Shown: one piece after another, positions 1-42,743 of the stretch
Layout of the letters: the number at the start of each line of letters is the position of its first letter
Numbering within the stretch: the first letter of the stretch is position 1
Origin: Tetragonia tetragonoides
Taxonomy: Eukaryota; Streptophyta; Magnoliopsida; Caryophyllales; Aizoaceae
Assembly (NCBI GenBank): GCA_038025085.1
Contig: CM076146.1
Span: 10,354,001 to 10,418,000, forward strand
DNA length: 64,000 nucleotides
Direction of reading: 5' to 3'
Program-made: the position numbers and the translations under genes
The notes under the pieces: generated by a model
What the model saw: only the letters and a program-made list of their open reading frames with translations
Database searches by the model: none
What the model was told of the DNA's origin: nothing

Positions 1-45
1 GAACTACATTGGCCTGATTCCCCATGGATATGTAGGTAACCCATA
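1..45 (+). other. Conserved block downstream of pol (element A)
   Basis: This segment reads GAACTACATTGGCCTGATTC and then a GGATATGTAGGTAACC core. The same block follows the pol stop of element C (27,688) and is present, reversed, in B (18,541) and D (37,868). It lies between the convergent 3' ends of pol and ORFa. It is non-coding in all copies and its role is unknown. Confidence 0.75.
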
Positions 46-329
46 TAACTTGGGCCACTTTAATAAAATAAATTTCTAAGGGAGTTTCAATCCATTCGAT
101 TAATGCAAAAATAAGCAAGTCTTTCATTAATATGGCTAAAGTTCATTACATGCTCTAATAAAAAAAACAGAGGTGCAAAAATAATAATAAAAAAATAAAA
201 GGGAATTTCTAAACTACATCTACTTGGGCATGCAAACCCATTATTTGAATTATACTACTAAGCAAAAATAAGACTTGCTAGACAATCAGAGGTGAACTAC
301 TCCTCTTTGTATTTGTTAAGTTCGGGCTC

Positions 330-1861
330 TTAGGCGGGCTCGTTAGGCTCATCAAGTTCCATTCGTTCTTTTGGAGCCCATCTTTCCCTACCATTACTCG
401 AAGAGGCCTCGTGATCATTGGGCCTAACTTGAAGGATTTGTTTGGTCGAGTGGGCCAGATTCTTCCTCTTTTTGGTTTGGGCCTTAGTCTTACCTTTTCC
501 CTTACCCTTAATTTGGGGGTTGGACGGCTTAGCGGGCCTATCAATTGGAGTTATCCTTACACCACTAGGCTCATCATATTTGCGGGCCTTGAATAACACT
601 TTTTCTTCCTCTAGGAGCATCTTGTTGACTTGATGGTCACCGCTCCAAACACACTCATTGTAAAAGGCCGATAGCCCGTGAGATTGCAGAAATACCGATT
701 TGATCCATACTTGACGACGGCTCCAATGCCGCTCCCAATTGGACACTAAGGAAGGGGTCAGAGGTCGTTGACAAGGGCACGCGCAACTTGCATTCAGAAT
801 TCTTTGTCGTAAATCGTATTGTCGTAGGAGGCGGTTTGGCAAAAAGAAATTCAAGGTACACAAACCAATGATCCAGGTGAAAGGCATGTTCTCACTACAT
901 CCCACGATCTTAGTGGTATGCCACCACGGAATAAACCAACCCATCTAGGTCTTGGCATACAAGAATTCCAACCATTCCTCACGAGAAGATAGAGAAAAGT
1001 GTCGACTCCTCGCCAGAAATTTTTTTGCGAGACCTTTGAGTATCTAGGGAAGGAGTTTCAAGGATATTGAGTCTCTCTTGAAACCATATCTACACCAAAA
1101 CCACAATAAGAAAAAAATGTTCGACTCAATACAAGATGAGAATTTCACTACATAAAGTTAAATCTATAAAGATTAAGGCTTTATCACAAAAACTTACTTG
1201 AAGGAGTAAAGGGCTCCCGGTGAAGGACACTTGAGGATTGCTCTTGACCCTATCTAAAGCAAGGATCGTCTCTCCCACGACCAAGTGCATAGGAGTGCTA
1301 TCCCATTGAATTTGCCAGGTCACCCTAAGAAGGCAAGCTTTGCCATTGTTCATGGTAGACTTCTTCTCGGATGGAATAAGAGCGTCTTCATTGCCACCAA
1401 CAAATAGATAACGGTGGAGGAGGCAAAATATTAAAGGTGCGTTTCTTGTACCTCATATCCATTGCATTCCGGGCTCTATATGTGAAGAAAGTCACAAGCC
1501 TAACAAGATCAACATCCTCATCATGAAGCACTTGAGCCACTTTACGAGGAGACAACCCGAGATATCATTAAAAATCACCTGAAAAGGCGTTCCCCAAGTA
1601 AGGAACGGCGGGAGGGCTCTCGGTCGGAAAGTCAATGATATCGGAGAACTCCTCCACCAACGGGCACATCTCATGAGCACCAAAGCGAAAAACATGGAAC
1701 TTCGATTCCCAAAATTCAATTAAAGCATGGAGAAAGTCCCACAATATTTTGACTTGTTTGAGGTGAAAGAATGCATTAAGCTTGAAAGGAGTGAGTTCTA
1801 ACCTCTCCTCTACGGTCATGGAGGCCAACCAAGCATCAAAGACATCATCAAAGTTCACCAT
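330..1861 (-). pseudogene. ORFa of element A: antisense PMD-like gene, degenerate
   Basis: The start at 1861 gives MVNFDDVFDAWLASM, followed by W-rich and FHVFRFGAHEMCPLVEEF motifs that align with ORFa of C (29,280) and B (17,152). The reading then shifts frame near 1570 and is recovered in pieces. One has the conserved HLVVGETILALDR and GSPLLLQ motifs (1353-1126). Another has W-PWW and LLRQYDLRQ (944 onward), like the R-QFG-Q-IP end of plant mobile domain proteins. The last ~90 residues are a Lys/Gly/Ser-rich disordered tail ending at 330. It runs opposite to pol. A protein of ~450 residues is expected; frame breaks make this copy probably non-functional unless some gaps are introns. Function is unknown. 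Confidence 0.6.
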
Positions 1862-2021
1862 TGTTAAAATTAAGGATTTTCTCTCAAGGAATTTTCTCTC
1901 TCTAGGGGCTCAAAGTAAGTGGTGAGAAGAGAAGAAGAAGAAACCCAATTATATAGAGGTCACGGTTAGATTGTCGTCGAAAAATTAAGGAAACGCGGAT
2001 AACAGACAGAAAAAGGACAGG

Positions 2022-2130
2022 CGGCCATTCCCCCAGTTTGGACGGCTGAGCCGCTGGGACGAGCGGGTTGACCGCTAGAACAAGCGGTGGCCGCTTGAAC
2101 TCTAGCATAGCTGCTAGGAGCTCTAGCGGT
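2022..2130 (-). promoter_or_regulatory. Phased CGG-N5-CCG dyad array upstream of ORFa (element A)
   Basis: Dyads start at 2022 (CGG-N5-CCC), 2043 (CGG-CTGAG-CCG), 2064 (CGG-GTTGA-CCG) and 2085 (CGG-TGG-CCG, spacer 3). Each start is exactly 21 bp from the last, and degenerate copies follow to about 2130. A TATA-like TATATAATT (minus strand) lies near 1950-1960, between the array and the ORFa start at 1861. The same arrangement stands before ORFb and in the LTR of this element. That it is a protein-binding array is inferred. Confidence 0.6.
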
Positions 2131-2564
2131 CACCATGTATAGGCACCTAATGTGCAGTTTCGCGAGGCCGACCTCGGTCCATTCGACCTCTCCTTAACCG
2201 AGCTCTACCTTCCTATTTCCCACTTGGATAGATTTTGAAAGCCTTCCTTTATATTTTTGCTCTTGTCACTTTTCTCTTTTTTCCTTTTTTATTTCTTTCC
2301 TTCTTTTTATTAGGATTATCAAGTTCCACATTTTTTCCTTTTATTTTCTGATTCCTTATTTTTTTTAATTATTTTTTCCCTTTTAATTATCTTTTTCTAT
2401 TTTCTTTTATATGCATTTTAGGGGAAGGGGTACCCCAAATGTGCTAAGTTCTCGAGAATCCTAAATTCTCAGAGTTCGTGTTTTGTGATTTTCCATTCGG
2501 AAATTAGATGATTAAATTCACATATGTGCATTTGCGTGATATATTTGTGCGTGAATAAAAGTAT
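2131..2564. other. Gene-free spacer, T-rich
   Basis: The spacer lies upstream of the ORFa promoter and outside the long inverted repeat. It is rich in short poly-T tracts with TTTTCCTTTT-like runs. I see no coding or RNA feature. Confidence 0.5.
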
Positions 2565-3621
2565 GATTTCCTCAAATATACACGATTAGCAAACTAATTT
2601 CCCATATAGCTTCGGTTGAGAACTATTTCCCAACATATACATCTATTAGGTTCGGATAGAGGCAAGGAAGTGAGATTTCCTCAAATATACATGTTTAACA
2701 AAATAATTCCCAAGATATACGTTATGTAGGATTTCGATTTTTTTTTCCTTCCAATTTTTTTTATCCGATTTTTTTCTTCCGCTTTATTTTGTTACGGTTT
2801 TTTTCTTCTAGAAGTGGGTGTATGCCACAACGGTTTTCTTTGTAAAATTTTTACCCCCAGATCTTCGCTTAACCACAGTAATGGGAAATATATTTAACCT
2901 GTCTAGCAAGCTCTTTTCATTTCAGTAATAACGCGTGATCCAAACGGTAAATCAACATTTGTACTCCGTTCAACCAACCTATATTCAAACAATTAACCGA
3001 CCATTGATCCAAATTTATACAAGTCCAAAAGATTTTCATAAATCTCAAATAAAATTTCAATACTTGACAATAGTTGAGTTAACATAACTCAAATCACCAA
3101 AAAAAAAAATACGACAGACAATAATTCTGCTAAAACCATTACTACTGCAGAAGCACTTTAGGACCTCCGTCTCGATCGATGCCCTCCACGATCCTCGAAG
3201 AAAGTGCAGACTCTATAATAGTTGGCAATGGTTTCACTCTATAAGTCGGCTTATCTACTATGATGTAGAACGCGACTATCTATTTGTCCCGAGTAGCCTG
3301 CAGTTTAAAGGTTTTGAAACCTGTAACAATGATCAATTCAACTCAGAAAGTGCAGAATGCAGCCACTTCTAGAAGAAAAAACCATAACAAAATAAAGCAG
3401 AAGAAAAAAACTCGGATAAAAAAAAATAAAATTGGAAGGAAAAATAAATCAAAATCCTATATGATGTATATCTTCGGAATTATTTTGTTAAACATGTATA
3501 TTTGAAGAAATTACACTTCATTGCCTCTATCCGAACCTAATAGATGTATATGTTGGGAAATAGTTCTCAACCGAAGCTATATAGGGAATTAGTTTACTAA
3601 TCATGTATATTTGAGGAAATC
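2565..3621. repeat. Long inverted repeat, arms of about 255 bp
   Basis: The left arm (2565-2817) begins GATTTCCTCAAATATAC. It is closely matched in reverse complement by the right arm (3363-3621). The central parts, including the GGTTCGGATAGAGGCAA region, pair with very few mismatches; the T-rich inner parts differ by small indels. The loop is about 545 bp. Each arm also contains a direct sub-repeat of its first ~25 bp. It lies between the two antisense genes of element A. It could be a foldback-type insertion, and a transcript through it would form a long hairpin. No target duplication was identified. Confidence 0.75.
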
Positions 3622-3694
3622 ACACTGAATAAAATGCAATATTTATAGCAGGTTTAATAGAAGCCCGAATGTTCAAAATGCATTACAACAAATA

Positions 3695-6600
3695 TCACTG
3701 GCCATCTTCGCCAGTACTTCGACCCGCCTGAGACGACTCTCCGGGCCCACTCGATGATGGAGCACCTGAAGGACCGGGCTGGGACATCCCCCAAGCTCTA
3801 GGGTCAAAAGCAAATAATGAGCCCGCCAAATGAGCAGGGTCCAGTGAATGACGCGATGGCCTCGACATGCTTGGGTAGCCGCCATACCCCGTACTCTCCT
3901 GGCTCCAAGAGCTCCTCGGAGGGATTGGATGATGCATATGCATGGGATAACCCGAGTACCCCATAGGAGGAGGCGGTGCATGCCACTGCGGAAGATAAGG
4001 TACCTGGGACGGGTTCCCCGTATCCACTCGAGCTTGAGGCGTCCCATGACGCACCTCCGTACTCTCTTTCCTCGGAGGAGGACGCTGCGGCGTAGGCGCC
4101 GACTCTGGAGCACGAATAACTGGAGGCCTAGGAGGCCTCGCCACGAGAACAGGCTGCAAAATAAACTTAAGGTCAGAAAATTATAAAATTCATATCAAGC
4201 ACTATTACTTGAAATGAACATACCTCCCGAACGTCGGATCGACGACTCGTGCACACACTCCGAGACGCGAATTTGGAAATCACATGTTTAAGGGCATGCA
4301 TGCCCCTATAGATCTTCCGCGTCTCAGCAGCATCCAACTGTACACATAAAAGGCGAGTCAGTATAAACATAAATGAAACATTGCAAATTAAAATGAATTT
4401 TTACTTACCCCCCTACAATCAATTGGTCGAGGCAATCCGTCGACCTCCTCATCGGGACCACGAAACTCAGGAATTAAAAGGACTTGAGAGGACTCGTCCG
4501 CTCCTGTATAACCCACCGACATGGTAGGAGGAGTAGGGCGCCGAGAAGAAGCAGTCACATGAGACAACGAAGAACTCGCAGCACTCTGCAGAACTTGAAG
4601 ATATTAGACATTTCTAAATTTCCAAACGAAATTAAAAAACAAAATAAATTACTCACCGGATCAGTGGAGAAGTTAGGGCACAATCGAGCCATAGCATACT
4701 CGGTATACGCCACCATAAGATCCACCCCCAGGTCAGCCGGGAGCAAATACTCAAGGGCATGCACCCCAACGGTGGCTGTCCTTACCTGCTCCACGGTAAG
4801 GTGACGAACATAAAGCATAGAATCCGGAGGATCCAAAGCAATCCTCAGAGTCGGAAGGTCGGAGAAAGTCTGCCTAATCAGTCTCTCTCCCAAGAACCAC
4901 TCAAAACCAAAAGGACCCTCAATGAGGACTCTCTTCTGGTCGTACTCTCGAGCACCTAAGAATTGGTCCGAGAGGTCCGGGAGGTAATCCGTCCAAGGGA
5001 ACCAAACAACCCGCAAAAGCAAAGAATGAGCACATAAAAGGATGAAGAGGACAATAAAAATGCCGAAGGTGAATGGGCGATCAAGGGATATATCGCCTCC
5101 CTAAGGGCGTGCAGTGTGGTGAATGGGCAAGAAGCCCGTCTTCTCCAGGCCTGCATCGCTGAAAAGGACAAATCCCCTGTCTCGAGAAGAGGGGCAAGGT
5201 CGGGGAAATGCTCATAAAACCAAGTCTAAGACATGCAAAGAACATGGATTAGACACAAGTCATGAGTAAAAAGACACAAAAAATAAGAAGGGTAAAAAGA
5301 AATTACCTCCATGACCTTCCAATAACCAACCAAGGAGATGCGAGGAGCGCCCTTCTCCCTATTGAGGCGGCTGGACTGCCTCAAACACCGCTGAAGAAAA
5401 GAGTATGCGGGAGGACCCCAGTTGTACTCCGCAACTCTGTCCAAATCCCGCAAGCACGGGAAATAGCAAACATGATACCTACTAGCTTTATCCGAAAAGA
5501 TGGAACAAGGTAGAATATAAGCCAAGAAAAGGCGAGCATGCTGCCCCACCATGATTTTCTTCAGCTTTCTCGGGTTGGTCAAGAACTGGACCTTTACGTC
5601 AGTCTGCCCATACTTCATACCATCTCAATTGGCCCCGAAAAGGCTAAATATCTCCACCATATCATCTATACTCACCTCTCCATAAGTGAGAGGGATACCG
5701 GTGCAAGGGAGCCCGAAAATGAGACCGAACTCAAAAGAGGTGATCATAATCTCACCCATAGGAAAAGGAAAAGTACTGGTAGTATCCCAGTACCGCACTA
5801 CAAGACCTCTAACAAGTAAGCGGTCGGAGCGCTCAGCAGAAGTGATAGACGCTAACAGATGACAGAAGCCACAACGCTCCACTATGGCGTTGACTTCAGA
5901 AGTCACGTACCTACAGGCTTTCTCAATCCTGGAAAGGCTACCGTAACCCCGCATGGTAGTGTCTACATCATATACAACACAATAATTGTAAAACAATTAG
6001 CTAGGTGATCCTAGTAACAACTACCAGTCTCCGGTTTAGTCCTAAATTTTTACAACTCCTAAAATTTAGCATTGTAGCTAAACCAATATAACAAGAGTAA
6101 GTTTTAACGAGAATAAATTTCATACAAGTTTATTTTCCATAAATTTCCTCAAAAATCATCTACCATTAAAAGAAAAATTAACTTCACTCAAGTTTATTTT
6201 CACCAAAGAGTGATAACTACAACGAGAATTAATTTCACACAAATTTATTTTCCACCACTTAAAGATGAATTTCACACAAATTCATTATTCACATGCAAAA
6301 ATAATTCTACGAGAATTTGCAAACTAGCAAAAAAAACCAATTTCACGCAAATTGGTTTTCCACATTAGCTACACTACAATTCTCAACCTAAAAATTCTAT
6401 GTTTGCCTACACATGATTTTCTAACTGTAAAAGCGCAAAGGAAAAAAAATGACATACCCGACATTTGGTACTTACGATAACCAAATGATCCTGCTTCCTG
6501 AAAACGAGATCGTGGGGCTCCCAACGATCGGTGGGATGAAAATCACTACGAGTGAACTCATCTTGGACTAAGCGGTGCTCACCGACCCAGTGATGGGGTA

Positions 6601-6697
6601 TACCGGAAATGAAGAATCGAGTAAAAATATTCGGGGTCTCCCTAACAACAATATCTTGTTCCTTCCTTTTCCTACCTCCTCTAAGTTTGGGAGCCAT
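3695..6697 (-). CDS. ORFb of element A: antisense plant mobile domain (PMD) gene, about 7 exons
   Basis: The start at 6697 (MAPKLRGGRKRKEQD) aligns with the MAPKDKGKR/MSPKDKGKR starts in B and C. Approximate exons are 6697-6458, ~5962-5307, ~5229-5057, ~5000-4657, ~4585-4411, 4337-4224 and 4153-3695, with GT/AG signals on the minus strand (GTATGT, GTAATT, GTGAGT, GTAAGT). PMD hallmarks appear in order: LVVRYWDTTSTFPFPMGE, EYNWGPPAYSFLQRCLR, WFYEHFPDLAP and IEGPFGFEWFLGERL. The last exon is Pro/Gly/Ser-rich and disordered. One in-frame TGA (5625-5627) interrupts exon 2, and the exon 1/2 junction phase is not resolved, so this copy may be dead. PMD proteins such as Arabidopsis MAIN/MAIL1 act in gene and transposon silencing; the role of this protein is unknown. 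Confidence 0.75.
6000..6400 (-). other. First intron of ORFb (element A), A/T-rich short repeats
   Basis: This stretch lies between exons 1 and 2 of ORFb. It is A/T-rich and repeats a unit like ATTTCACACAAATTTATTTT several times. No coding potential is seen. Confidence 0.5.
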
Positions 6698-6989
6698 GGA
6701 TGAAGAACAAAATTGGAGTTTTTGAAAATTGAGTGAAATTCACAAAACTCACAAATTCACACAATTTTGAGTTTTGACACTCAAAAACTCAAGAACAACT
6801 AACAAAATCAAGTTCTTTTAAGAACTTGAGCAAGAAAACCTCAAGATTTGGAGCTAGGGGCTTTGATGGAGGTTGAGAGCTTGAAGAAAATGAAGGATAG
6901 AGAGAAGAGAAGGCTTAAAATGGAAGAAGATCCATTTCGGCCTCCCCCCCCCACTCTTCCTTTTATTCCACGTGCTAAACCCTACCGAA

Positions 6990-7187
6990 CGGTGGAACCG
7001 CCCAGGTGGACGGTCAAACCGCCAGGCTGGCGGTTAAACCGCAAGCCACGTAGCTTGCCCGCTTGCCCAAACGGCTCAACCGTTTGGCAGAGCGGATTAA
7101 CCGCTCCAACCAGCGGCATGGCCGCTCCAGCAAGCGGCTTGACCGCTCCACCAAGCGGTTTAGCCGTTTGTACCGGCGGTTTGGCCG
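6990..7187 (-). promoter_or_regulatory. Nine phased CGG-N5-CCG dyads upstream of ORFb (element A)
   Basis: Nine dyads have the form CGG, any five bases, CCG. They start at 6990, 7011, 7031, 7072, 7093, 7114, 7135, 7156 and 7177. Steps are 21, 20, 41 (one degenerate site skipped), 21, 21, 21, 21 and 21 bp. The five-base spacers differ almost every time, so the half-sites and the period are kept while the spacer is free. The array ends about 25 bp upstream of an AATAAAAGG TATA-like box (minus strand, ~6961-6970). It looks like a two-helical-turn array for a dimeric DNA-binding protein; that reading is inferred. Confidence 0.7.
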
Positions 7188-7419
7188 CCTAACACTCCTC
7201 CTCTTATTGTATTCTATTCAGGGCCATTAGTTCAAAATCAGTGGGCCCCACGTGAGGCTAATAGCAGTTATTTACACTCCAAAATCCGTTTATGAAAGCG
7301 GGACTACTTTAAACCAACGGATTTGTACATCTATACTCGGCCTATGGCAAGGGCTGGCGTCTGACGAAAGGTCTGAGCAACATTTTATTACCCTTTACAA
7401 TTACATTTATTATTTATCT

Positions 7420-8150
7420 TGTTTCCAACGAAATATTTTATTGAGTAACCTACAGCACTGGGTCTCCCTTCGACTGAAAATCGAAGGACATTTATTGTGT
7501 GACCTACAGCTTAGGGTCTCTTTTAGACTAAAAATTGAAGGATTTTTATTATCTATTATTTTATTTCGAACGAAATATTTTATTGTGTAACCTACAGCAC
7601 AGGGTTTTCCTTCGACTGAAAATCGAAGGACATTTATTGTGTGACCTACAGCACAAGGTCTCTCTTCGACTAAAAATCGAAGGATTTTTATCATTTATTG
7701 TTTTATTTCTAACGAAATATTTTATTGTGTAACCTACAACACAGGATTTTCCTTCGACTGAAAATCGAAGGACGTTTATTGTGTGGCCTACAACACACGG
7801 TCTCCCTTTGAATAAAAAACGAAGGATTTTTATCATATATTCTATTTATAACGAAATATTTTATTGTGTAACTTACAGCACATGGTTTCCCTTCGACTGA
7901 ATATCGAAGGACATTTATTGTGTGACCTACAGCACAGAGTCTCATTTCGACTAAAAATCGAATGAGTTTTATCATTACTACCTATCTTTTTTCTAATGAA
8001 TATTTTATTGTGTAACCTACAGCACAAGGACCCTTCGACTGATAATCGAAGGATTTTTATTGTGTGACCTATAGTATAGGGTCTCACCATTCGACTGATA
8101 ATCGAAGGATTTTTATTGTGTGACCTAAAACATAGGGTCAAACTCCCGGT
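7420..8150. repeat. Tandem repeat array in the 3' region of element A
   Basis: About five copies of a ~140-145 bp unit begin ACGAAATATTTTATTGTGTAACC (e.g. 7425, 7570, 7711, 7851, 7996). Each unit is made of two ~70-bp half-units with TGTGACCTACAGCACA and a stem-loop CCTTCGA...TCGAAGG. Translation frames across it are artefacts. It lies between the ORFb promoter and the LTR, where Tat-lineage elements are known to carry hypervariable tandem repeats. Confidence 0.9.
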
Positions 8151-8289
8151 CAAATAAACCGGGGGAATTATTAGTTTATCCTAAAATGATTGTTTATCTC
8201 TAACTATTTGTCACCTGACTCAGCTTGCCTATTTGTTGAATCATGCCTGTATTGGCATAGGAATACTTTGACCTTCGCTCTATTCGAGC

Positions 8290-8309
8290 TCGGCCAAAGT
8301 AGGGGCTTC
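8290..8309 (+). other. Polypurine tract of element A
   Basis: CCAAAGTAGGGGCTTC lies immediately before the LTR start. It matches the AAAGTGGAGGCTTC of element C and, reversed, the GAAGCCCCCACTTTT of B. This is the plus-strand primer site for reverse transcription. Confidence 0.75.
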
Positions 8310-9590
8310 TGTAGACACCAAAAAGTGTGTCTATGATATGTCCCCCTAAAAACCCGAAGATGAAAGGATTGGATTTTGCTCGAACTTGGGTTGCGAGAAT
8401 AATTCCTCTGATGATTAGCCCAGTTCATTTGAATTAACCAGTGGAAGCCTTTTGTACAGGTGATCAAAACCAGTTGGACTCAATTCATTTGGAGTCCAAA
8501 ACTGAGAGATAGGCCTCTTTGAGCCCAAGGGCCCGAAAGGGAACCCAAACCCTTGAGTCAACCCTTGGTCAAACAAGGGACCTCAGTTAATCCCGTGTGG
8601 ACCGCCTCGGAATAGCCTCCCCCACTTAGAAAGCATGTCAGGCGCCTATGCAGGCAGGGCGCTCCAGGTCCAAGCGGCCACGCTTGAGTTCAAGCGGCTT
8701 GATCGCTTGCCTAGCTGCATGGCCGCCTGGACCCTTTCTCGCAGAAGGAAAATTCGACGCCCATTCGATTTTCGTTCCAAACCCTGGCAGCTCCCCCTCT
8801 TCTACATAAACAAACCTTAGGATTTAGTTGAAGGGGTTGGTCTTTTGCTTCGGAATTTGAGAGGTTGGACATTTCTCTCACATTATAAACCTTAAATTCC
8901 GATTCTACTTCTTCTTTAGGCTAGCCCTAGCACCACAAAAATAAACCTTCATACTTCATCAAGAGCAAGAGTTCAAGCATTAAACCCAATAGTCCATTAT
9001 GAGCATCAAGGTAATCTAACCTGAGTGTTTTCATTAAATGTTATATTTTCTTGTTATCTAGTAACGATTTTAGTTTATGTGATATGTACATGCATGGCAC
9101 GTTTTGAGCAAAAGGAGTTGTATTAAACCCGAAGAATGAATGAATGGATGAATGAATGCATGTATTTTATTGCTCTTTATTATAAATTATGCTTTGTTTG
9201 TGAATTGGTGGATGAATTGTTTTATTTGTCTTCTAATTTGCAGGTTTTAGCACATTTATCGTTGTTAGCATTAAAAGCATGTAAATTTGATAAGTTGTTA
9301 AAAGTGGTCACATTAGTAATGTTTGTTCAACCCATTAGTTAAGACAAGGATTTTGGACAAATTGAACCTTGTTTGGAACCGTAGCATTAACAATCGCATT
9401 GAATTGATTAGTAAAGGCCGTTGTTGTTAACGGGCGAGTTGGGTGCCTAACACCTTCCTAACTCATACTCACGCCCCCGAACTCATTTATGAAGTCAATT
9501 TCCCCAATAGGGATTGTGGTGCACAGGAATCGAATTGACGTCTTTTTAGAATATTGACTTGATTCCAAGGGTTCCAAATTTCCTTAAATT
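8310..9590 (+). repeat. 3' LTR of element A
   Basis: It starts TGTAGACACC right after the polypurine tract. It carries a dyad array at 8670-8725 (CAAGCGGCCACGCTTG, then CAAGCGGCTTGATCGCTTG, then CTG-CATGG-CCG, about 20-bp steps). A TATA-like CATAAACAAACC follows near 8800. The block GAGTTGGGTGCCTAACACC (9430-9450) is shared with the LTRs of B, C and D. The 3' edge is uncertain: the sequence runs into TTTGGTGGCGAATTTT near 9590, which resembles a primer site, so the end given is approximate. Confidence 0.65.
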
Positions 9591-10875: not shown

Positions 10876-12154
10876 TGTAAGGACTCTGGATTATCTTGCC
10901 ACAGAGTGTGTCCTTATAGAAATTTTGTAAGCTGGGGGTTTAGATAAGTTCAAGGAACCGACGACTTAGAATAGCATTTGAAAAGACTTGAATTGAATAA
11001 AAACCATGAAAGAGGTCACAAATCTGTTACCGGCGTTTTTCCGAAGGGACAACCCAGTAGCGCAAAGAGTGAACTAATCGTGATTTTAGAAAGACTCCCG
11101 CTCATTTAGAACATATGAGTACCCAAAAATAAAGGGTTTGGGGGCGAAGGTACGAGGTGGGAAAGTGTTAGGCACCCAACTCATCTGTTTTATGACGACC
11201 TCTACTAACTCAAGTTTGCATAATAATATAAAGACATGATTCCCACACAAACCGGATTAACAACCTAGATTTAGACTATTAATTGGTTCATCACAAGCAT
11301 CACAACATTTATTTTTAACCCTTGTTTAGACATGCATTCGATTGGCAGGTTGAGCATTACAACGACTAGACATGCTTATTTACAGAATTGAAAGACAATA
11401 TTTAGGAAGCAATAAACGACATGATTAGCATGATATCTACAATTTGACTACTAGAACATATACAGTTAAACAATTAATTTAATTTGAGCCCTCAGGAGTT
11501 AGTACTTGAACTATAGGCTATTTAGCAAATGAATAGTAAAAATAGATCCCAAGCAAAGAATAAATTTGGAAGAAAGAGGGGGAAGCTCGGGAGTACTCAA
11601 TCGAGAATAGAGGTTGTCAACTGTAGACTGTGTGTTTTGAACTGCGGGAGGAGGGCTATATTTATTGGCGAAGGAGTAGGGTTGGACGGGTGAAGGGAGG
11701 CCAAAATTTGAAGAGATAGGGACGAAAAAGGGCTGCCGCCAGCAGCCTCGTGAGGGCCGCTGGCGGCCCTCGCCACATCCGCTAGCGGCACTGGCTGGAA
11801 TACCAGGGTCGTTGGCAGCCGTGGGCCTGCTAGGTGGATGTCGTCATGGATTTTGCAGAGGAATATTTAATGTTTCGAAAATGAGAAAAGATTGTTTTAC
11901 CCCTCTGTGGGAAAAGACGGTTTTACCCTCGGTTAGCAACTTTGCAACCGAGGGTCAGAAAAAGACACGAGAGGTGTCGTTGGAAAGCTCTTGAACGAGA
12001 CTTTTGAATGTGATCGAACTAAAGGAGTGATAGAGGAAAACCCTGATACCTTATTTTACCTATCAAAGCAAAAATAGCATTCAAGTTTATAAATTACTCC
12101 TTTCATCATCGGGCTCTGGCGGAGAAATCTCACGACGCTTTTTTGGCATCTACA
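10876..12154 (-). repeat. 3' LTR of element B
   Basis: It runs from TGTAAGGACTC at 10,876 to ...GGCATCTACA at 12,154 and aligns along its length with the B 5' LTR once the two small insertions there are removed. Dyads CCGCCAGCAG, CCGCTGGCGG and CCGCTAGCGG (core starts 11,739, 11,760, 11,782) are spaced 21-22 bp. ATATTTATTGG near 11,659 is the minus-strand TATA region. Confidence 0.9.
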
Positions 12155-12539: not shown

Positions 12540-13110
12540 AGTCGATGAGACAGTGCAATCAAAATGACGGCTGTAAATGGTTAGAAAACATATGAACAGT
12601 TTAAATGCACTAGCAATCATTGACGAAAACATATAAAAACAAATGACAGTATAACCGCAATAGTTTAAGCAATCATTAACTTTCAGAAAATGAGTAGCTT
12701 CAAATAAAAATGACAGTTTAACCGCACTAGCGATCATTCACTGACAAAAATGAATAGCTTCCAAAAAAAAAGATAGTTTAATCACACCAGCGATCCTTGA
12801 CTGACACTAAAATGAGTAGCTTTGAATAAAAAAGACAGTTTAACCGCACTGACGATCATTGGCAGTCACAAAATGAATAGCTTCGAATAAAAAATGTTTA
12901 ACCGCACAGGAGATCATTGACTAAGACTAAAATGAGAAGCTTCAAATAAAAAAGGCAGTTTAACTGCACTGGCGACCATTGGCTGTCACAAATGAATAGC
13001 TTCGAATAAAAAGACAGCTTAACCGCACTGGCGATCATTGGCTGTCAAAAAATGAAATGAATAGCTTCGAATAAAATAAATGAATAGCTTCGAATAAAAT
13101 GAATGAATAG
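12540..13110. repeat. Tandem repeats in the 3' region of element B
   Basis: About nine diverged copies of a ~60-65 bp monomer contain GACAGTTTAACCGCACT, GCGATCATTG and AGCTTCGAATAAA. In reverse complement it is the same monomer family as the array of element C (33,270) and of D (36,340). The last copies collapse into a ~25-bp sub-repeat (ATGAATAGCTTCGAATAAA). Confidence 0.85.
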
Positions 13111-22110: not shown

Positions 22111-23493
22111 TGTAGACGCCAAAAAAGCGCCTTCAGATTTCTCCGCAAAAGCCCGATGATGAAAGGAGTAATTTATAAACTTGAATGCTATTTTTGCTTT
22201 AATAGGTAAAATAAGGTCTCTGGTTTTCACTCGATTACTCATTCATTTCAGTCCTATTCAAAAGCCCCATTCAAGAGTTTTTCAACGACACCTCTCATGA
22301 CTTTTTTCGACTCCCGGTCGCCAAGTTGCGAATCGGGGGTAGAACCGTCTTTCACCGCAGAAGGGTAAAACGGTCTTTTCATATTTTTCAGAACACTAAA
22401 TTCCTCCGGAAAATTAAAATAGACTGGATGCCGTCATTTTGACGGCATCCAGTTGGCAGCTGACGGTAGTCAGCGGCCCTGGATTAAAATCCAGGCCGCT
22501 AGCAGCGCTCACCAGAGTCGCTAGCGGCCCTGGATTAAAATCCACAACCGCTAGCGGGACTCACCTGAGCCGCTCGCGGCCCTTGCTGAGTTTTTAAGCC
22601 CGACTATTTTTAAGCCCGACTATTTTTCAGCCCAAAATCCAAATTTTGGCTCCTTTCACCCGTCCAACCCTACTTTCTACGCCTATAAATACAACCTTCC
22701 ACCCTCAGTTTAAAACACACAGTCTACAATTGACAACCTCTATTCTCAGGAGTATTAACACTGAGCTTTCCCCTCTTTCTTCCAAACTTGAGATCTTGTC
22801 TTTACTATTCTTGTCAAATATAGCCTACAGTTCAGGTACTAACTCTTGAGGGCTCAAAATAAACTAATTTCCTAATTGTTTATTTTCTAGTAGTCATAAT
22901 GTAGATATCATGCTAGTAAACGCCTTTTATTGCTTACTAAATATTGTCCTTCCAAGCATGTCTAGTCGTTGTAATGCTCAACCTGCCAATCGAATGCATG
23001 TCTAAACAAGGGTTAAAAATAAATGTTGTGATGCTTGTGATAAACAAATTAATAGTCTAAGTCTAGGTTGTTAATCCGGTTTTGTGTGGGAATCATGTCT
23101 TTAAATTATTAAGCAAACTTGAGTTAGTAGAGGCCGTCATGATACGGGTGAGTTGGGTGCCTAACACCTTCCCACCTCGTACCTTCGCCCCCGAACCTAT
23201 TATTCTTGTGTACTCATATGTTCTATATGAGCGGGAGTCTTTCTAAAAACCTGATCAGTTCACTTATCGCGCTATTGGGTTGTCCCTTCGATTTTGTCCC
23301 TTCGGTTTGTCCCTTCGATAAAACGCCGATAGCAGATTTGTGACCTCTTTCATGGTTTTTATTCAATTCAAGTCTTTACAAAAGCTTTTCTAACTCGATG
23401 GTCCCTTAAACTTATCTAAACCCCCAACTTACAAATATTATATAAGGACGTACTCCGTGGAAACAGATGGATGGAAAATCCCGGGTCCTTAGA
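22111..23493 (+). repeat. 5' LTR of element C
   Basis: It begins TGTAGACGCC and ends GGGTCCTTAGA (CA end mutated; the 3' copy ends TTACA). It has a 14-bp inverted repeat with a 3-base loop at 22,423-22,453. CCG-N4-CGG dyads have cores at 22,499, 22,521, 22,551 and 22,573 (steps 22, 30, 22), and the TATA box CCTATAAATACAAC is at 22,682. An 18-bp dyad CCTGGATTAAAATCCAGG lies between the sites. Confidence 0.9.
22499..22690 (+). promoter_or_regulatory. LTR promoter of element C: dyad array and TATA box
   Basis: Four CCG-N4-CGG-like sites end about 105 bp upstream of TATAAAT (22,684-22,690). The 3' LTR carries the same set (34,790-34,870; TATA at 34,962). The array design is shared with the two antisense promoters of this element. 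Confidence 0.6.
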
Positions 23494-33269: not shown

Positions 33270-33830
33270 AAAATTACGGGTCAATCAATGACCGCTTAAG
33301 CTATTGCGGTTAAACTGTCCTTTTCTACGAAGTTCGAAAGTCGGGTCATTCAATAACCGCTTAAGCTATTACGGTTAAACTGCCCTTTTCTACGAAGTCC
33401 CAAAGTCGGGTCAGTCAATGACCGCTTAAGCTATTGTGGTTAAACTGTCCTTTTTCTACGAAGTCACAAAGTCGGGTTGGTCAATGACCGCTTAAGCTAT
33501 TGTGGTTAAACTGTCCTTTTCTACGAAGTCTCAAAGTCGGGTTAGTCAATGACCGCTTAAGCTATTGCGGTTAAACTGTCCTTTTTTACGAAGTCCCAAA
33601 GTCAGGTCAGTCAATGACCGCTTAAGTTATTGCGGTTAAACTGTCCTTTTTCTACGAGGTCACTTATTCGGGTCAGTCAATGATCGCTTAAGCCATTGCG
33701 GTTAAACTGTCCTTTCTACGAGGTCACTTATTTTTTGTCAGTCAATGATTGCTTAAACTATTGCGGTTATACTGTCCTTTGTTTTTATATGTTTCAGTCA
33801 ATGATTGCTTAAGCTATTGCATTTAAACTG
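33270..33830. repeat. Tandem repeats in the 3' region of element C
   Basis: About nine copies of a ~61-bp monomer, GTCAATGACCGCTTAAGC..., then TTGCGGTTAAACTGTCC and CTACGAAGTC. Each monomer can fold with ACCGC pairing to GCGGT. Homologous to the arrays of B and D. Confidence 0.9.
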
Positions 33831-34404: not shown

Positions 34405-35759
34405 TGTAGACGCCAAAAAAGCGCCTTCAGATTTCTCCGTATAAGCCCAATGATGAAAGGAGTAATTTATAAACCTGAATGCTATTTTTGCTTTAATAGG
34501 TAAAATAAGATCTCAGGTTTTTCCTCGATTACTCCTTTGTTCCAATCCCATTCAAAAGCCCCATTCAAGAGCTTTCCAACGACATGTCTCATGACTTTTT
34601 CCGACTCCCGATCGCCAAGTTGCAAATCGGGGGTAGAACCGTCTTTTACCTCAAAAGGATAAAACGGTCTTTTCATATTATTCGGAACACTAAATTCCTC
34701 CGAAAAATTAAAATAGACTGGATGTCGTCATTATGACGGCATCTAGCTGGCAGCTGACAGCCGTCAGCGGCCCTGGATTAAAATCCAGGCAGCTAGCGGA
34801 GCTCACCAGAGCCGCTAGCGGCCCTGGATTAAAATCCACAGCCGCTAGCGGCGCTCACCTGAGCCTCTAGCGCCCCTCGCTGAGTCTTCAAGCCCCACTA
34901 TTTTTCACCCCAAAATCCAAATTTCGGCTCCTTTCACCCGTCCAACCCTACTTTCTACGCCTATAAATACAACCCTCCACCCTCAGTTCAAAACACACAG
35001 TCTACAGTTGACAACCTCTATTATCAGGAGTATTAACACTGAGCTTCCCCCTCTTTCTTCCAAACTTGAGATCTTGTCTTTACTATTCTTGTCAAATATA
35101 GCCTACAGTTCAGGTACTAACTCTTGAGGGCTCAAATTAAATTATTTGCCTAATTGTTTATTTTCTAGTAGTCATAATGTAGATATCATGCTAGTAAACA
35201 CCTTTTATTGCTTACTAAATATTGTCCTTCCAAGCATGTCTAGTCGCTGTAATGCTCAACCTGCCAATCGAATGCATGTCTAAACAAGGGTTAAAAATAA
35301 ATGTTGTGATGCTTGTGATAAACCAATTAATAGTCTAAGTCTAGGTTGTTAATCCGGTTTTGTGTGGGAATCATGTCTTTAAATTATTAAGCAAACTTGA
35401 GTTAGTAGAGGCCGTCATGATACGGGCGAGTTGGGTGCCTAACACCTTCCCACCTCGTACTTTCTCCCCCGAACCTATTATTCTTGTGTACTCATATGTT
35501 CTATATGAGTGGGAGTCTTTCTAAAAACATGATCGGTTCACTAATCGCGCTATTGGGTTGTCCCTTCGATTTTGTCCCTTCGATAAAACGCCGATAGCAG
35601 ATTTGTGACCTCTTTCATGGTTTTTATTCAATTCATGTGTTTACAAAATATTTTCTAACTCGATGGTCCCTTAAACTTATCTAAACCCCCCAACTTACAA
35701 ATATTCTATAAGGACGTACTCCGTGAAAACAGATGGATGGAAAATTCCGGGTCCTTACA
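34405..35759 (+). repeat. 3' LTR of element C
   Basis: TGTAGACGCC to GGGTCCTTACA, 1,355 bp, homologous throughout to the 5' LTR with scattered substitutions, so the insertion is not very recent. The dyads are better preserved than in the 5' copy (GCCGCTAGCGGC at ~34,811 and ~34,841). Confidence 0.95.
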
Positions 35760-36339: not shown

Positions 36340-36715
36340 GTTAGAAAACATATGAACAGTTTAAATGCAATAGCTTAAGCAATCATTGACTGAAACATAT
36401 AAAAAACAAACAAAGGACATTATAACCGCAATAGCTTAAGCAATCATTGGCTGACACAAAAGGGGACTGTTTAATCACACTAGCTTAAGCGATCATTGAT
36501 TGACACAAAAGCAGTAGCCTTGAATAAAAAGGACAGTTTAAGCGCACTAGCTTAAGCGATAATTGATTGACACAAATGAGTAACCTTGAATGAAAAGGAC
36601 AGTTTAACTGCACTAACTTAAGAGATCATTGACTAACACAAATGAGTAGCCTCAAATAAAAAGGACAAACCGCACTAGCTAAAGCGATCATTGACTGACA
36701 CAAATGAGTGAATAG
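36340..36715. repeat. Tandem repeats in the 3' region of element D
   Basis: About six diverged ~60-bp copies contain GGACAGTTTAA, CACTAGCTTAAGCGATCATTG and ACACAAATGAGTA. Same monomer family as in B and C. Confidence 0.8.
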
Positions 36716-41153: not shown

Positions 41154-42743
41154 TGTAAGGACACGGGATTTCTATGCCACGGAGTGTGTCCTTATAGAAA
41201 ATTTGTAAGCGGGGGGCTTTAGATAAGTTCAAGGAACTGTCGAGTTAGAAAAGCTTTTTAAAAGACTTGAATTGAATAAAAACCATGAAAGAAGTCACAA
41301 ATCTACTATCGGCGTTTTATTGAAGGGACAAACCAAAGGGACAACCCAATAAGGCGATAAGTGAACAAATCATGTTTTTAGAAAGACTCTCGCTCATATA
41401 GAACATATGAATACCCAAGAATAAAGGGTTCGGGGGCGAAGGTACGAGGTGGGAAGGTGTTAGGCACCCAACTCGCCCGTTTTATGACGGCCTCTACTAA
41501 CTCAAGTTTGCATAATATTTTAAAGACATGATTCCCACACAAAACTGGATTAACAACCTAGATTTAGACTATTAATTGGTTCATTACAAGCATCACGACA
41601 TTTACTATTGACCCTTATTTAGACGTGCATTCGATTGGCAAGTTGAGCATTACAACAATTAGACATGCTTAGAATTGAAAGACAATATTTAGTAAGCAAT
41701 AAAGAGCATGATTAGCATGATATCTACATTTTGACTACTAGAAAATAAACATTTAAGCAATTAATTTGATTTGAGCCTTCGGGAGTTTAGTACCTGAACT
41801 GTAGGCTATTTAGCAATTGAATAATAAAACAAGATCTCAAGTAAAGAAAGAGGGGGAAGCTCGGGAGTACTCAACCCAGAATAGAAATATTTATAGAAGA
41901 AAGAGGGAGAAGCTCAGGAATACTCAATTGAGAATAGAGGGTGTCAACTGTAGACTATGTGTTTTGAACTGAGGGACGAGGGTCATATTTATAGGGAAAG
42001 GAGTAGGGTTGGACGGGTGAAGAATGGCCGAATTATGGAGATCGGGCTTGAAAAAATATGGGCCTCATCAGACCCAGCGAGCGCCGCTAGCGGCGCTGGC
42101 GAACGCCGTTAGCGGCCCTGGGAAATCTCACAGCGCCGCTGGCGGCTGTGGAGCTGCCAGTTGGAACTTTGTCAGGCCATATCTCACTCGTTTGGGCTCA
42201 AAATTAGAAGATTCAAGATGCGATGGAAAGCTTATTGAGTCTAATTTCAAATGGATTTTGTATGAGGCCCAAATGTTTTGTGAATATCTATATATTCCCA
42301 AAAGAGTAAGGAGAGGTTAGTTTTAGAGCACGCACCAATGTTGGGCTCGTAACTCCTCGGTTGGGAATGTGGTGTGGGCTCATGATATGTTATTGGAAAG
42401 CTATTTGAATAAGAAATCCATAACTATAAGGCGCACAAATTAAATCAACCTAATGAACTCCCAAATTGGGCTGGAATCATGGTATACAGTATTCGGCTAC
42501 ATCTGTTTTGACCCTTAACTTTGTTTGATCATAACTCTTTGGTGCGGAATCGTATTTTGACACGGAAGGAAGCAATGGAAATTTCTTAAAAGGGGATTTT
42601 AAATGAAGTAGAAATGGAAGAAACTTTCATAATACTTGAGATCTCATTTACTTAACAAAGCATAATAGCACACAGGTACATAAATTATTCATTTCATCAT
42701 CGGACATTTGGGGATATCTGACGACACTTTTTTGGCGTCTACA
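41154..42743 (-). repeat. 5' LTR of element D
   Basis: TGTAAGGACACGGG to TTGGCGTCTACA, 1,590 bp. Dyad cores are at 42,087 (GCCGCTAGCGGC), 42,109 and 42,139 (steps 22 and 30), with TATTTATAGG (minus TATA) at ~41,986-41,996. Confidence 0.95.

Follow-up and report, generated by a model that had tools for sequence, protein, structure and literature searches.

Arrays of CGG-CCG dyads stand at the three promoters of a Ty3/gypsy retrotransposon family of Tetragonia tetragonoides and may form a common regulatory module

Positions 1 to 8310 of a 64,000-nt stretch of the Tetragonia tetragonoides genome (contig CM076146.1, 10,354,001 to 10,418,000; hereafter the window) hold the 3' part of a retrotransposon, which is followed by its 3' long terminal repeat (LTR). 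Two genes in this part are antisense to the element: gene A, with a plant mobile domain (PMD), and gene B, with a DUF7745 domain. Upstream of gene A lies a cluster of CGG-N5-CCG palindromes, here termed array A, whose nature and possible role are the subject of this report. The original prediction had described this cluster as nine dyads with a 21-bp period, placed before an antisense retrotransposon gene, and had read it as selected for binding of a dimeric protein on one face of the helix. Its position upstream of such a gene is borne out by the PMD matches in gene A, one piece scoring above the curated cut-off and one below. At least 26 of 30 copies of the region have the start codon of gene A, and a TATA-like stretch, weakly conserved in the alignment of these copies, lies 22 bp from array A (Table 1).

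All nine dyads of array A are perfect and begin exactly where predicted, at 6990, 7011, 7031, 7072, 7093, 7114, 7135, 7156 and 7177. The start-to-start steps are 21, 20, 41, 21, 21, 21, 21 and 21 bp; the period of 21 bp is therefore followed in most of them, one step being 20 bp and another 41 bp, the latter gap marking the place of one degenerate unit. The column majority of the 30 aligned copies reads as ten dyads, with steps of 21, 20, 20 and then six of 21. The motif occurs 15 times in the whole window against 3.23 expected (maximum of 9 in 100 shuffles), and nine of these 15 matches fall within 198 bp. Between 6980 and 7195, the nine dyads compare to a mean of 0.23 in Markov-1 shuffles (maximum of 4 in 20,000), and seven pairs of dyads are 20-22 bp apart, compared to 0.00055 in the shuffles. 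Stacking the 21-bp units shows invariance in all six half-site columns but in no other of the 21, the half-site columns having been chosen by the very property, invariance, for which they were then scored. The nine 5-base spacers all differ from each other, so the claim that half-sites are kept while spacers differ between units holds. The array has an observed to expected CpG ratio of 1.03, compared to 0.68 for the window as a whole; its left and right flanks have ratios of 0.64 and 1.00.

Array A is not the sole array in the window. A similar one, array B, precedes gene B, and a decayed one, array C, is found in the LTR (Table 1). Among nine family copies, array B contains at least two perfect dyads in eight and none in one. 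The first perfect dyad is separated from the TATA-like hexamer of gene B by 87-88 or 108-109 bp in seven of these eight copies and by 150 bp in the remaining one, and 35 of the 43 CGG-to-CGG steps in the nine copies measure 20-21, 41-42 or 63 bp. Array C stands upstream of the LTR TATA in loci L009, L011, L012 and L069 and in family copies. Of 29 LTR loci obtained, 21 were displayed and 16 had both flanks; in these 16, the array spans 97-218 bp between flanks (lengths taken between alignment ends) and contains 0-5 perfect dyads with recurring spacers. Altogether, arrays with 20-21-bp steps stand at all three promoters of the family, those of the two antisense genes and that of the LTR. Such recurrence at the other two promoters supports the regulatory-array reading of the original prediction.

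The array A region is present in at least 40 copies at 83-89% identity, the window's own included. Copy analyses were carried out on 29 of the 30 loci retrieved plus the window, the thirtieth (L017) being the window's own locus. Perfect dyads number 5.6 per copy on average (range 3-9). Of 137 steps between them, 77 measure 20-22 bp, 42 measure 40-42, ten 61-63, four 82-84 and two 124-125, with one step each of 31 and 36 bp. Spacers vary between the units within one copy, and units at the same place in different copies largely keep their spacer. Across the genome, pairs of dyads with 0-30 bp between them number 6229, compared to 1777 for the reversed pattern. In the first 50 such places, all on contig C1, the step is 21 in 21 cases, 20 in six, 22 in three, 40-41 in eight and another value in 12; thus, 27 of these first-listed places have a step of 20 or 21, 31 steps being possible.

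The consensus of the unit is about AGCGG-YTNAR-CCGCT. In a set of 142 unique units, outer arm bases pair more often than after shuffling at positions -1/+11 (73% vs 64%, z 3.4) and -2/+12 (66% vs 49%, z 5.2), with smaller differences at -3/+13 (37% vs 31%, z 1.7) and -4/+14 (46% vs 41%, z 1.4). The first and fifth spacer bases pair in 56% of the units vs 47% (z 2.4); no co-variation is seen between the second and fourth spacer bases of these units (47% vs 51% shuffled, z -1.3). This co-variation of the arms fits a site for a dimer and also a hairpin.

Related arrays are carried by two diverged families. Locus L015 contains relatives of gene A (pieces 36-46% identical) and of gene B (32-51%). 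The end of its B promoter has four AGCGG/GGCGG sites with steps of 22, 21 and 21 bp and inner gaps of 5, 4 and 4; only one perfect N5 dyad is found among the sites of this promoter, where earlier steps are 45, 30 and 28. Sites in the A region of L015 are irregular; in the same region of L076, a sister copy, a pair of dyads with a 21-bp step is seen. The other family, made up of the LTR loci L013, L014 and L068 (reverse), which were grouped by eye on the TATA region, aligns to the window LTR only in short pieces. Its dyads precede a TATATATA box: three with steps of 21 in L068, two 34 bp apart in L013 and one in L014.

On balance, and without great confidence, we lean towards the arrays being a promoter-proximal module, read by a putative dimeric protein, that would couple sense and antisense transcription. 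Each unit of about 21 bp would be a palindromic site on which a symmetric dimer contacts the two CGG half-sites. With a common module in the LTR promoter, from which sense gag-pol would be expressed, as well as ahead of the two antisense genes, one factor could act on three transcripts together; units would be gained and lost through slippage or unequal recombination. Protein binding, the dimer, activation and co-regulation are all steps that we infer from sequence, and the likeliest reader would be a host factor with a CGG half-site. This model is favoured because arrays are found at three promoters, because steps of about 21 recur in copies and genome-wide, and because of the arm pairing, the architecture of the Sirevirus retrotransposons and the antisense promoter of the maize element Grande, both described below.

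A number of observations weigh against this model. A fixed step and common half-sites can stem from tandem duplication; placement on one face of the helix, as originally proposed, is compatible with 20-21-bp steps, but a tandem duplication yields a fixed step as well. Checking column conservation in the 30 copies did not separate half-sites from flanks. The majority base has a mean frequency of 0.908 at half-site positions, 0.887 at spacer positions and 0.885 at those between dyads; the two flanks reach 0.912 and 0.918. The fraction of CpGs kept is 0.825 for the 18 sites in half-sites, 0.762 for the 11 in flanks and 0.69 for the 4 elsewhere in the array, with no significant difference between half-sites and the rest (p = 0.15), and CpG transitions amount to 0.070 in half-sites and 0.075 in flanks. 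With these transitions excluded, variants shared between copies are fewest per column in half-sites (0.10), followed by flanks (0.21) and spacers (0.34); the ratio of shared to singleton variants does not distinguish half-sites from flanks (p = 0.25) or from the rest of the array (p = 1.0). The third half-site bases, which are outside CpG, behave like G and C of the flanks (0.30 vs 0.32). The test thus lends the binding-site reading no help, and it is low in power because most copies are probably dead. The outer pairing is the same in isolated dyads (55 unique), and the kinship of copies inflates the co-variation figures. No clear array was seen by eye in the LTR of the distant L015 family. 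Lastly, no perfect dyad occurs in ten stretches taken from upstream of the best DUF7745 matches (0 of 10). Six DUF7745 genes on the list, five of them adjoining these dyad-free stretches, were read as one close family, and for this reason the negative is a weak one; an eleventh stretch fetched with the set, L057, is an LTR piece. Selection for a dimeric protein is backed by recurrence at other promoters and by the palindromic co-variation of the arms, which would suit a hairpin too, but selection on the half-sites was not detected among copies.

Rather unlikely, in our judgment, is an origin as a neutral minisatellite, in which a 21-bp GC-rich unit arose once and recombined into three places, whole-unit slippage keeping the step with no protein to read it. 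The LTR arrays do change length between copies and reuse spacers, half-sites decay much as flanks do and the element also holds 142-bp tandem repeats. It is less easily reconciled with arrays standing upstream of the TATA at all three family promoters, with half-sites common to units whose spacers differ or with co-varying arms; a related array is also present in LTRs of a family with little alignable sequence apart from it, and the same pattern is described in Sireviruses in the available part of one report (PMC2829016). We regard as improbable the possibility that the palindromes act as RNA structures, in read-through transcripts that feed host silencing. Both strands of the array fold strongly (z -7.5 and -8.9, none of 200 shuffles being as good), and in maize Sireviruses small RNAs are said to be in excess over clusters of palindromic motifs (PMC10760457, citing Bousios 2016, as far as the available text goes). 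However, an array upstream of the TATA should be outside the main transcripts, co-variation is absent between spacer bases two and four, and a structure harmful to the element would vanish unless also useful to it.

We are equally doubtful that the reader is encoded by the element, that is, that the PMD or the DUF7745 antisense protein, as a putative dimer, binds the arrays at all three promoters. Arrays are carried by both antisense gene promoters as well as by the family LTR, and basic runs resembling nuclear localization signals (NLS) were noted by eye in both products. A parallel is provided by the anti-silencing VANC proteins, which, according to the accessible part of the report, bind tandem, copy-number-variable motifs in non-coding parts of their own VANDAL transposons (PMC5735166). 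The retrotransposon would then encode its own regulator, in the form of one of the antisense proteins, to keep sense and antisense transcription in balance or to ward off silencing; such a system would have evolved independently of VANC, and parallel to the arrays of Sireviruses. Yet Pfam returned no DNA-binding domain in the pieces scanned, and the ten other DUF7745 gene loci are without arrays. Sireviruses, for their part, have arrays, and the passages available do not report a PMD or a DUF7745 gene in them.

Table 1. Features of the retrotransposon in the window (positions of the 64,000-nt stretch).
Feature	Position	Strand	Basis and remarks
Antisense gene B, DUF7745 (PF24924)	330..1861	-	Pfam; span without exon model
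TATATA box of gene B	1950..1955	-	TATA-like hexamer in 9/9 family copies
Array B	2022..2130	none	Dyads at 2022 (one mismatch), 2043 and 2064, shorter-gapped one at ~2085; precedes antisense gene B
Antisense gene A, plant mobile domain (PMD, PF10536)	3695..6696	-	Pfam matches; span without exon model
TATA-like stretch between array A and gene A, AATAAAA on minus strand	6961..6967	-	Sequence; 30-copy alignment
Array A	6990..7187	none	Nine perfect dyads with steps of mostly 20-21 bp; precedes antisense gene A
Degenerate tenth slot of array A	7051..7062	none	Perfect dyad in 16/29 other copies (strings counted by eye); 30-copy alignment
142-bp tandem repeats between array A and 3' LTR	7414..8116	none	Repeat scan
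3' LTR, start TGTAGACACC	8310..8880	+	Sequence, LTR copies; 8880 not a measured right end
Array C, in LTR	8670..8735	none	Decayed in window copy, with one-mismatch dyads at 8695 and 8715; other copies have up to 5 perfect ones
LTR TATA-like stretch, TACATAAA in window copy, TATATAAA in L012	8803..8810	+	Sequence, LTR copies

The nature of the element was deduced from L009, a copy elsewhere in the genome that carries both antisense genes behind pol. The latter specifies reverse transcriptase, RNase H (RT_RNaseH), a second RNase H-like domain (RVT_3) and integrase. Since reverse transcriptase, RNase H and integrase come in this order, the element is a Ty3/gypsy and not a Ty1/copia retrotransposon. 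A hallmark of the Tat clade is an additional RNase H-like domain that separates RNase H from integrase; we take the RVT_3 following RT_RNaseH in L009 as this hallmark and, hence, the element as Tat-type. No Pfam match to Transposase_28 (PF04195), the Retand antisense marker, was obtained in the antisense pieces scanned (a subset of frames). In the consulted part of a survey, 57% of Ogre elements have a PMD gene (PMC6317226). A purine-rich tract at ~8296-8309 directly precedes the LTR start.

In the gene B frame, the NLS-like basic run (KGKGKGKTKAQTKKRK) is close to the C-terminus, within 330-550 of the window; that of the gene A frame (MAPKLRGGRKRKEQD) occupies the N-terminus, within 6650-6696, both on the minus strand. 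Another family of DUF7745 genes is found at loci L070-L075; its open frames are long, with 383-433 codons in the pieces fetched, and the loci read lack a dyad array upstream of the gene. A nested insertion of ~1065 bp lies at 2561-3625, with inverted ends of ~265 bp (2560-2823 and 3357-3626, 90% identical) flanked by a 9-bp repeat, TGAATAAAA, at 2552-2560 and 3626-3634. L009 and L010 lack the insertion, the equivalents of window positions 2560 and 3626 being contiguous in these copies, and it looks like a non-autonomous Mutator-like element. Elsewhere in the window (22472-22583, 34759-34877, 42077-42121 and 11730-11800), other LTR-like repeats, partly made of 52-bp tandem units, contain GC-rich palindromes such as CCGCTAGCGG, the layout of which differs from that of the CGG-N5-CCG arrays. 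Related tandem repeats of 60-66 bp with ACCGC or GCGGT pieces are found in other window elements (12672-13056, 33277-33780 and 36412-36709).

Among known DNA-binding systems, fungal Zn2Cys6 sites consist of inverted CGG half-sites at fixed spacing, and the array shows no more than a resemblance to them. The GCC-box of ERF factors is AGCCGCC; a reading of the dyads as ERF sites, offered as an alternative in the original prediction, fits poorly, with one GCCGCC and no AGCCGCC in array A. No DRE or TCP sites were counted there either. Plant LOB/LBD factors, which have a zinc finger and form a coiled-coil homodimer, are said in the accessible text of two reports to discriminate palindromic DNA (PMC10118128, PMC7582388). 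The GCGG core, part of their site, is shared by the units here; the GCGGCG element itself is absent from both strands of array A, and an LBD/LOB zinc-finger dimer is, because of this, only a lead to a candidate reader. The existence of these homodimers, together with the arrays of Sirevirus LTRs, weakens the earlier argument that no plant factor goes with a CGG-N5-CCG array.

VANDALs are not classed as LTR retrotransposons. In a VANC-type anti-silencing system, the motif is bound by a protein of the transposon itself, through which methylation is removed. What the element has in common with the VANC type of target is a short tandem motif in non-coding parts, whose number changes between copies; the published target of VANC21 is YAGTATTAY (PMC5735166). 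Grande and Retand, too, have antisense accessory genes (PMC7264820, PMC11963269). Grande gene23 has its own antisense promoter and a nuclear product (PMC7264820), and the antisense proteins of Retand have been proposed to bind DNA (PMC11963269). The products are of the gene23 or Transposase_28 type in these elements, compared to PMD and DUF7745 here, and the portions of the two papers at hand mention no CGG-CCG array.

The nearest relatives of the arrays are the palindromic repeated motifs (RM) of Sireviruses. As far as the available text of Bousios et al. (2010, PMC2829016) goes, an RM is present in 13 Sireviruses, with a CGG-CCG core in 12, and lies in the LTR, upstream of the TATA; in the nine Sireviruses with an ENV gene it is also found near this gene, mostly upstream. 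The RM cluster is described as defining a CpG island, and the authors consider the RM specific to Sireviruses when compared to classic retrotransposons. The motifs of Osr10 (CGGTCTGACCG) and Osr8 (CGGTCAGACCG) conform to CGG-N5-CCG, and that of Inga (AGCGGTASTACCGCT) shares its AGCGG...CCGCT arms with the unit described here (PMC2829016). In a separate observation, locus L067 (1246-1367 of C1:4007300-4010300) contains ~22-bp repeats with the core of the Osr10 motif. Like a Sirevirus, the element family has CGG-CCG palindromes in at least eight copies (nine in array A alone), an LTR cluster upstream of the TATA (decayed in the window's own LTR) and a cluster before an internal gene. Unlike Sireviruses, which are Ty1/copia and have a sense ENV, it is a Ty3/gypsy element with two antisense genes and no cluster upstream of a sense ENV. 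RM units are mostly more than 85% identical; the spacers of array A all differ and those of the LTR array recur. Our search of the open-licence literature, judged by its result listings, found no report of a CGG-CCG array in Ty3/gypsy tied to antisense genes, nor of a binder of Sirevirus motifs, LBD binding to retrotransposons or palindromic arrays in gypsy elements. Thus, the Sirevirus-type array is known, and its presence in a Ty3/gypsy element with antisense genes is apparently new. The arrays provide a handle on the expression of antisense accessory genes and its possible coordination with that of the sense genes, and are short enough for direct use as bait. In conclusion, the presence of this core in Ty3/gypsy, at places like those that it occupies in Sireviruses, suggests that unrelated retrotransposons make parallel use of a single plant regulator.
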